Below, one piece after another: positions 42,838-45,391 of a DNA stretch of 64,000 nt. Origin of the DNA: a bacterium HR40. GTDB taxonomy: Bacteria; Pseudomonadota; Alphaproteobacteria; Geminicoccales; Geminicoccaceae. Location of the stretch: NCBI GenBank assembly GCA_002898275.1, contig BEIQ01000001.1, forward strand, positions 861,899-925,898, given 5' to 3'. Numbering within the stretch: position 1 is the first letter of the stretch; each line of letters opens with the position of its first letter. Below the pieces are notes generated by a model that saw only the letters and a program-made list of their open reading frames with translations, was not told the origin of the DNA and made no database searches. The position numbers were made by a program, and so were the translations under genes.

Positions 42838-43773
42838 TCAGTGGGGCGCGACCAGCCGATATTCCTCGCAGGCCGAGACCTCGCCCTCGAACTCCATCTC
42901 GAGGGTCGTGTGCGCGATTCCCCAGCGCTCGCGCAGCATGCGCTTGGCTTCGGCCTTGATGGCCTCCATGCGGGCGGGGCTCACCTCGGGGATCACGATA
43001 TGCGCCTCGAGCGACAGTTCGTGCTCGGCAAGCGCCCACACGTGCAGGTGATGGACCCCTCGCACTCCCGGGATCGCCAGGAGGTCCTGCTCGATGTGCG
43101 CGAGCTCGATCTCGGCCGGCGTGCCGCCCATGAGCATGCGCACCACCGGCACGGTGTCGCGCCCGGCATGGACGAGGATATAGCCGGCAATCAGCAGGGT
43201 GACGAGCGGGTCGACGATGGCGAGCTGCCACAAGAGCGCCGCGGCTCCCGCTACGATCACCGCGAGCGACCCCAGGGCATCCGCCACATTGTGGAGGAAA
43301 GCCGCGCGGACGTTGACGCTCGTGCGCGCGAGGCGGTGGGTCAGCAAGGCGGTGGCGAGATCGACCGCGAGTGCCACCGCTGCGACCCATACGACCATCC
43401 AGCCATCGATCGGCGGCGGTGCCACGAGCCGGACGAGCGCCTCCGCCACGAGGTAGAGGCCGATAGCTACGAGAGTCGTGAGGTTGACGAGCGCCGCCAC
43501 CAGTTCGGCGCGGCCATAGCCGAAAGTCATGCCGTGGTGGGCCGGCCAGCGGGTGATGCGGCGAGCGAGAAGCGCGATCGCCAGCGACAGCGCGTCGCTC
43601 AGATTGTGCACGGCATCGGCAACGAGCGCCAGGCTGCCGGCGATCACGCCACCCGCGATCTGCAGCAGCGTGAGCAAGAGATTGACCGCCACGGCGAGCG
43701 CCAGCCGGCGATCGCCCGCGGCCGCCTCGGGGCCGTGCCGGTGGCGATGATGGAGATGACCGTCCGCGGGCAT
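42838..43773 (-). CDS. Cation diffusion facilitator metal exporter (CzcD/ZitB type)
   Basis: 311 residues. His-rich cytoplasmic N-terminus (GHLHHRHRHG), six membrane helices and a ferredoxin-like C-terminal domain. Metal site residues are in SLALVADAVHNLSDALSLAI (HxxxD) and LHNVADALGSLAVI (HxxxD), and the C-terminal domain has HVWALAEHELSLEAHIVI. Exports Zn2+ or Co2+/Cd2+ in exchange for protons. ATG 43773, 37 bp after the Cdd-PNP fusion gene. Confidence 0.92.
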   Translation of the reverse strand: MPADGHLHHRHRHGPEAAAGDRRLALAVAVNLLLTLLQIAGGVIAGSLALVADAVHNLSDALSLAIALLARRITRWPAHHGMTFGYGRAELVAALVNLTTLVAIGLYLVAEALVRLVAPPPIDGWMVVWVAAVALAVDLATALLTHRLARTSVNVRAAFLHNVADALGSLAVIVAGAAALLWQLAIVDPLVTLLIAGYILVHAGRDTVPVVRMLMGGTPAEIELAHIEQDLLAIPGVRGVHHLHVWALAEHELSLEAHIVIPEVSPARMEAIKAEAKRMLRERWGIAHTTLEMEFEGEVSACEEYRLVAPH

Positions 43774-43810: not shown

Positions 43811-45058
43811 TCATCGCGACGGCAAGCGACAAGCTCCGTCGTCGACGAGCGCCACGAGGCGCGGCAGGGCGCTCCGCAAGAGGCGCTCGAGATCCGAGGC
43901 CGCACGAGCCGCAGCAGCGAGCGTCTCGGCGTGCGAGAGCGGTGTCGGTGCCCATCCGGCTGCGAAGTTGGTGACCACCGCGATGGCCGCGACCCGAAGT
44001 CCGAAGTGCCGAGCAGCGACGGCCTCGGGCACGGTCGACATGCCGACGAGATCGGCGCCGAGCGCCCGGAAGGCTCGGATCTCGGCTGGAGTCTCGAAGC
44101 AGGGTCCGAGAGTCGCGAGATAGACGCCGGATGCGAGCGGCAGGCCGAGGAGCGCGGCCGTGTCGTCGAGCGCGCGGGCGAGCTCGCGGTCGTAGACAGC
44201 GGAGAGATCGAGGAAGCTCGGGCCGCTTCCCGTCTCGAGACCGACCAGCGGATTGGTCGGGAGCAGGCTGATGTGGTCGTCGAGACGCACGAGCCGCCCC
44301 GGCCCGAGATCGGGGCGCAAGGATCCCGCGGCACAAGTGAGGAGGAGCGCCCGGCAACCGAGATCGGCCGCGAGCCGCACGTACGGCAGAACGGCGGAGG
44401 CCGGACGGCCCTCGTAGAGATGGATGCGCCCGCGAAAGCAACAGACTTCGACCCCGCCCAACCGCCCGAGGACCAGTCTTCCGGCATGGCCCGGAACCGT
44501 GGGGTGCGGCAGGCCGGGAAGGTCGGCGAAAGGAACGACCACCGCCTCTTCGATCGCGTCGGCGAGGGAATCGAGGCCGGATCCCAGGATGAGCCCGAGG
44601 CGCGGTCGCAGCCGTGGCACCCTCGCCTGCACTGCCGCTGCGGCATCCTTTCCCCCCTCTCCTCGCGACTCGTGGCCGAGCGCCGCGAAGGCATGGGGAA
44701 GGAGTTCGCCGAGGGACAGGCTCAGGAGACGATGGCCGTCGCCCGAGACCATATGGACGCGGCTTTCGGGGTGGGCGAATTCGGCGAGCCGTTGCCGGCA
44801 GCCCCCGCAGGGCGGACAGGGATCCGGCCCGCTGCCGACGATGGCGATTTCGCGAATCCGGCGCTCGCCCGCCGCCACCATGGCTCCGATCGCCACGGCT
44901 TCGGCGCACTGGCCTTCGGGGTAGGAGGCGTTCTCGACATTGCAGCCCAGGTAAACGGCCCCCGAAGTGGTGCGGATCGCGGCTCCCACCCGAAAGCCGG
45001 AGTAGGGCGCATAGGCTCGCTCGCGCACCCGGAAGGCTGCCTCGATCAGATCCCTCAT
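43811..45058 (-). CDS. Cytidine deaminase - purine nucleoside phosphorylase fusion
   Basis: 415 residues in one open frame. Residues 1-126 are a homotetrameric-type cytidine deaminase: Zn ligands Cys51 with catalytic Glu53 (CAEAVAIG) and Cys84/Cys87 (PCGGCRQ), start AYAPYSGFRVGAA. Residues about 140-415 are a trimeric-type purine nucleoside phosphorylase: LGLILGSGL, GHAGRLVLG, RIHLYEG, TLGPCFETPAE, GMSTVPEAVAAR and VVTNFAAG (purine-binding Asn364). A 14-residue linker (GHESRGEGGKDAAA) joins them. No stop separates the domains. An in-frame GTG in the linker with a purine-rich run upstream might also give free PNP. Start ATG 45058 follows GAGGGGAAG. Confidence 0.88.
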   Translation of the reverse strand: MRDLIEAAFRVRERAYAPYSGFRVGAAIRTTSGAVYLGCNVENASYPEGQCAEAVAIGAMVAAGERRIREIAIVGSGPDPCPPCGGCRQRLAEFAHPESRVHMVSGDGHRLLSLSLGELLPHAFAALGHESRGEGGKDAAAAVQARVPRLRPRLGLILGSGLDSLADAIEEAVVVPFADLPGLPHPTVPGHAGRLVLGRLGGVEVCCFRGRIHLYEGRPASAVLPYVRLAADLGCRALLLTCAAGSLRPDLGPGRLVRLDDHISLLPTNPLVGLETGSGPSFLDLSAVYDRELARALDDTAALLGLPLASGVYLATLGPCFETPAEIRAFRALGADLVGMSTVPEAVAARHFGLRVAAIAVVTNFAAGWAPTPLSHAETLAAAARAASDLERLLRSALPRLVALVDDGACRLPSR

Positions 45059-45391
45059 CTTCCCCTCGCCTGCCTGCCATCCGGTAGAGCTGCTGCGCGC
45101 AGCGGGAAGGTCCAGAGACCGAGAAGGTTCGCTCGGATCGAAACCGACAAGACGGGAAATCCGGGCATGGGCGACGCGGCGCGCGCGGCCGCGGCTGCGG
45201 CAAGCCGAAGAGGGAGCGGAGGGCGGGGAGAAAAGCCAGCTGCGAGCCGGCGAGGATCGCCACCGCGCACGTCGCGACATCCTCGCCTCCGGCGGTCCTC
45301 GACGCTGGTTTCGGGGCGACAGGGCCGCCGATCGCGGCACCCGCCGACCCGGCGAGACGGCCGGCGAAAGGGCGCGCGCGGCGGATGCCGC
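45059..45391. other. Intergenic region, no supported gene
   Basis: 333 bp between yjbQ and the Cdd-PNP gene, both on the minus strand. Very GC-rich, open in several frames with Arg/Gly/Ala-rich translations, no recognisable domain, no clear promoter. Probably a leader/promoter region for cdd-punA. Confidence 0.4.

Follow-up and report, generated by a model that had tools for sequence, protein, structure and literature searches.

The window, by which we mean the whole stretch of 64,000 nucleotides that was analysed, contains on its minus strand a single gene for two enzymes of nucleoside salvage, a cytidine deaminase (Cdd) and a purine nucleoside phosphorylase (PNP). The gene starts with an ATG at 45058 and has 415 codons followed by a TGA stop that ends at 43811; the preliminary description had correctly placed both enzymes in one uninterrupted frame at 43811-45058, leaving the strand unstated. 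The tetrameric-type Cdd domain (44684-45052, about residues 3-125, as delimited by TIGR01354 and NF004064) is followed by an inter-domain join (44648-44695, residues 122-137), where the C-terminal tail of Cdd continues into the N-terminus of PNP, and then by a trimeric-type PNP domain of the PNP-I/XapA group (43865-44650, residues 137-398, as delimited by NF006054 and the structure 3odg). An AlphaFold model with a mean pLDDT of 84 has two confident domains and a low-confidence dip at residues 122-134, and both domains are recognised by Pfam in each of the 21 aligned Geminicoccaceae fusion proteins. On the upstream side, a gap of roughly 330 bases (45059-45391) with no convincing gene separates the fusion from a YjbQ gene; a promoter and terminator scan returned one weak terminator-like hairpin in it, at 45251-45235. 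About 37 nt past the stop of the fusion starts a gene for a CDF cation-efflux protein (42838-43773, minus strand), which is a new neighbour when compared to relatives, where deoC comes next.

The Cdd part belongs to its family by score, with 133.9 bits against TIGR01354 (cut-off 113.65) and 141 bits against NF004064 (cut-off 74), the matches covering residues 2-125. Its zinc ligands C51, C84 and C87, the catalytic E53, and N40 and E42 are invariant in an alignment of 21 Geminicoccaceae fusions; the catalytic assignment of these residues, and of those in PNP, is established for both families. By sequence comparison, the closest solved structures are 2d30, 3dmo, 8x6u and 1uwz; the structural matches listed for the protein were filled by PNP chains and leave Cdd uncovered, and it is by sequence that this part is confirmed. 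Towards the C-terminal end of the domain, P121 and F124 are also invariant among the 21 fusions, and the equivalent of F124 is a Phe in 27/27 fused and 50/50 separate proteins. In tetrameric CDAs, each active centre is built by three subunits, the C-terminal Phe being supplied by a neighbour (PMC9897663). The conservation in all fusions of this residue, whose equivalent in tetrameric CDAs reaches into the neighbouring active site, argues that the Cdd tetramer would be kept.

Residue 54 of the window's Cdd (44897-44899, minus strand) is an Ala, within the motif CAEA, and the Arg that T-CDAs usually have beside the zinc site is missing. Such an Arg is found in none of 50 separate proteobacterial Cdds and in 5 of 22 Geminicoccaceae fusions. 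For the enzyme CDA_F14, the mutation R56L lowered the efficiency about 50-fold; in some T-CDAs the natural residue at this position is His, Cys or Thr (PMC9897663). By analogy, the Ala could reduce the rate of the window's Cdd; the Arg is a common feature of T-CDAs, though neither a defining nor an obligatory one.

The PNP part scores 321 bits with NF006054 (cut-off 218) and 275 bits with TIGR01697 (cut-off 197.1), and stays below the specific equivalog cut-offs of PUNP, XAPA and PNPH. S160, R211, H213, Y215, F321/E322, M340/S341, N364 and H376 are invariant in the 21 fusions, and the model superimposes on xanthosine phosphorylase (3odg) with a Z score of 38.2 and a deviation of 1.5 Å over 271 residues. 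The profile scores and the invariant catalytic residues thus bear out the earlier reading that both salvage enzymes are present with all their key residues. The fused gene is the sole full match in its genome; the other PF01048 and PF00383 members, named by sequence inspection and not by a family scan, read as an MTA/SAH nucleosidase, an AMP nucleosidase, TadA and RibD, and no second Cdd or PNP was found among the PF01048/PF00383 matches. Among solved structures we found no fused Cdd-PNP chain, and the open-access papers searched gave no account of a fusion of Cdd with PNP in nature, which is apparently undescribed so far within that literature.

A search for the same fusion in related genomes, as the preliminary description had proposed, gave a match in 25 of 31 Geminicoccaceae genomes and both domains in one frame in 23, the window's own included. 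Counted among the 23 is a genome (G025) in which a contig end cuts the PNP part; outside the count is another (G019) with a contig edge inside Cdd, before the join. The other 22 fused genomes show roughly 48-63% identity, and most genera of the family have conserved the fusion. One genome (G030) has a decayed fused copy (L030, on contig C28), in which Cdd is frameshifted and the PNP part is still open. Six of the 31 genomes gave no match: the four of genus g15 (G014, G021, G026, G028), G011, which is 70% complete, and G022. With all four g15 genomes lacking a match to either domain, both salvage steps appear to have been lost in that genus.

In a second alphaproteobacterial family (f53), the genes are fused in 5 of 7 genomes. 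No further stop-free fusion was found among the matches listed from a 386-genome sample of the class and a 397-genome sample of the phylum, both of which are partial, so that rare fusions could escape them. Outside the two fused families, cdd and pnp are separate in the matches listed, and usually adjacent. Full-span matches in Azospirillum, Mesorhizobium, Labrenzia and others, as well as L022 (G032), were rejected as fusions because a stop lies between the genes; L092 was rejected since its cdd lies downstream of pnp.

The arrangement of the unfused genes suggests how the two became one. Relatives without the fusion usually have the two genes side by side, cdd first, and in many of these pairs the genes share 4 nt (NTGA), pnp starting at -1 as counted from the cdd stop. 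For the stretch bounded by the LLP and GSGL motifs, the fusions have 35-46 residues (mean 37.7, n = 26), with 24 of the 26 at 35-40, while the Cdd tail plus PNP N-terminus of overlapping unfused pairs adds up to 27-43 residues (mean 37.2, n = 19). Since the fused and the summed-tail lengths match, the join appears to be two natural tails with no added linker; its sequence is without conservation among the aligned Geminicoccaceae fusions. Where the preliminary description had seen a short Gly/Glu/Lys linker, the composition (HESRGEGGK) is as stated, but the segment is just as long as the two natural tails together, and is not a linker in the sense implied. As judged from the sequences, the fusion most simply originated when the cdd stop was lost at the overlap without a linker being added: an ancestral cdd-pnp pair with overlapping stop and start would have become a single frame, for which a one-base shift at the overlap would be enough. 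In one fusion (L010, in G004) an ATGA is still at the expected position, now in frame; as the motif is short, it is only suggestive of a relic of the overlap.

The number of such events may be one or two. In one tree, the two fused families fall into a supported clade (96/88), which includes a separate gene pair of the family f57 as well. A test of one clade uniting the fusions gave a mild rejection with a first taxon set (AU p 0.021); with a second set, neither this clade (p 0.134) nor monophyly of the Geminicoccaceae fusions (p 0.461) was rejected. The f57 loci L133 and L170 have separate cdd and pnp genes with a 4-nt overlap, and their sequences fall beside or within the Geminicoccaceae fusions; they could possibly be a fusion that was split again, or an unfused sister lineage. 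The trees are compatible with a single fusion that was split again later in f57, and also with two fusions.

In the two relatives examined for their genomic setting (G015 and G018), the fusion gene comes after ABC transporter permeases and before deoC, with deoA present too in G018. The transporter is probably of the nucleoside (Bmp-like) type, a substrate read from the neighbouring genes; the best NCBIfam matches of the permeases are B6-transporter models and fall below the cut-off. Just upstream of the gene, many members have the codons for YVKER, followed by a stop codon overlapping with the ATG of cdd. In the window's genome, related permeases are found on contig C2 and deoC-deoA on C3, with the fusion elsewhere; as its gene has left the transporter-deoC-deoA operon, the argument for co-uptake rests on the relatives. 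We infer that the ancestral cdd-pnp operon would have included a nucleoside-type ABC transporter together with deoC-deoA.

The N-terminal domain would convert cytidine and deoxycytidine to uridine and deoxyuridine, and the C-terminal domain would split purine nucleosides by phosphorolysis into the base and (deoxy)ribose-1-phosphate. Cytidine deamination and purine nucleoside phosphorolysis are parallel steps that share no intermediate, and channelling is therefore unlikely. It is likelier that the fusion fixes at 1:1 the dosage of two salvage steps that work on imported nucleosides, and it may be nearly neutral.

The two enzyme families are homotetrameric (Cdd) and trimeric or hexameric (PNP), which makes the question of an oligomer mismatch a sound one; that a tetramer here meets a trimer is soundly predicted from the sequences. 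Both domains would probably keep their native quaternary contacts, resulting in mixed or higher-order assemblies. With a trimeric PNP and a tetrameric Cdd, satisfying both interfaces arithmetically takes multiples of 12 chains, and the smallest fully satisfied stoichiometry would be 12 chains, made up of three Cdd tetramers and four PNP trimers. A 24-chain arrangement of tetrahedral symmetry, in which six tetramers and eight trimers occupy the vertices of a rhombic dodecahedron, would also be geometrically possible. PNP-II of E. coli is a hexamer, and such a form would alter the chain arithmetic. Taken as a whole, we consider it highly probable that the gene encodes a bifunctional Cdd-PNP that arose from the overlap, provides the two salvage steps at 1:1 dosage and keeps both sets of native contacts.

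In principle, such a gene could be mimicked if a stop codon had been lost through an error in sequencing or assembly. The same in-frame fusion is found in 22 other Geminicoccaceae genomes and in a second family, and since fused frames free of internal stops are seen throughout Geminicoccaceae, an indel artefact is excluded and the chance of an error is practically nil. Separate genes in every near relative, the outcome that the preliminary description had named as speaking against the fusion, are not what is seen: near relatives are fused. The fusion is a genuine, old and conserved joining of two ordinary enzymes. The full-length protein might still be accompanied by free PNP (or Cdd), arising from internal initiation or from proteolytic cleavage in the exposed join, which would ease the mismatch. 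The low confidence of the model at residues 122-134, as in disordered stretches, is consistent with this, as is the presence in the window of a purine run with an in-frame GTG (codon 143, 44630-44632, minus strand), from which, as had earlier been suggested, extra free PNP could be made. This candidate start is unsupported, however: the tested stretch before the GTG has no SD-like match, the nearest SD-like sequence, AAAGGA, being 13 nt away, the ATG beside the purine run lies in another frame, and the joins of L009, L014 and L015 contain no in-frame ATG, GTG or TTG along their entire length. The purine run is adequately explained by the Gly/Glu/Lys codons. Given the poor spacing and the lack of conservation, the GTG is rejected as a conserved start; some leakiness particular to the window is conceivable, and we regard additional free PNP or Cdd as very unlikely.

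It could also be that the assembly itself was selected, with the D2 tetramer and the C3 trimer combining into a defined particle of 12 or 24 chains that co-locates both activities. The occurrence of the fusion in most Geminicoccaceae genera, the narrow join length (35-40 residues in 24/26) and the invariant tetramer-contact Phe are all in line with this idea, whereas a join that equals the summed ancestral tails, with no tuned linker evident, and that is unconserved in sequence speaks against it; on balance, we think selection for assembly unlikely. That Cdd-PNP is, family-wide, a natural protein that reconciles D2 with C3 symmetry as a defined 12n-chain particle (for example a 24-chain cage) seems to us distinctly unlikely; if true, it would be a natural counterpart of designed symmetry-mismatch fusions.

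We favour the overlap-derived bifunctional enzyme, which would be a clean case of an overlapping stop and start giving rise to a gene fusion of enzymes on parallel, and not consecutive, salvage branches. As Cdd-PNP joins enzymes with incompatible native symmetries, it is of moderate interest through the question of its assembly. Its Cdd shares with homotetrameric T-CDAs (B. subtilis CDA, 1jtk/1uwz; CDA_F14, 7zob) the three-Cys zinc site (CAE...PCGGCRQ) and the C-terminal LLPxxF with the Phe that enters the neighbouring subunit. While these enzymes have a free C-terminus, the Cdd of the fusion continues into the PNP domain, and it has an Ala in place of their usual zinc-site Arg, which its unfused proteobacterial relatives also lack. 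The PNP has the fold and active-site residues of the PNP-I/XapA group (the E. coli xapA product, 1yqq; Y. pseudotuberculosis, 3odg) and retains the N-terminal helix of that group, yet its N-terminus, unlike theirs, is continuous with Cdd. In engineered T. thermophilus PNP I/TP fusions, a linker of 12 residues likewise ties a PNP to another nucleoside enzyme with a different oligomeric state; these are man-made, with thymidine phosphorylase as the partner, unlike the natural Cdd-PNP (PMC11430618). Because these engineered proteins, with their mismatch in oligomeric state, formed a range of oligomeric species and were impaired in TP activity (PMC11430618), the assembly of Cdd-PNP may, by analogy, not be benign. 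With the engineered equivalent behaving so poorly, the way in which the natural Cdd-PNP assembles would inform the design of fusion enzymes.
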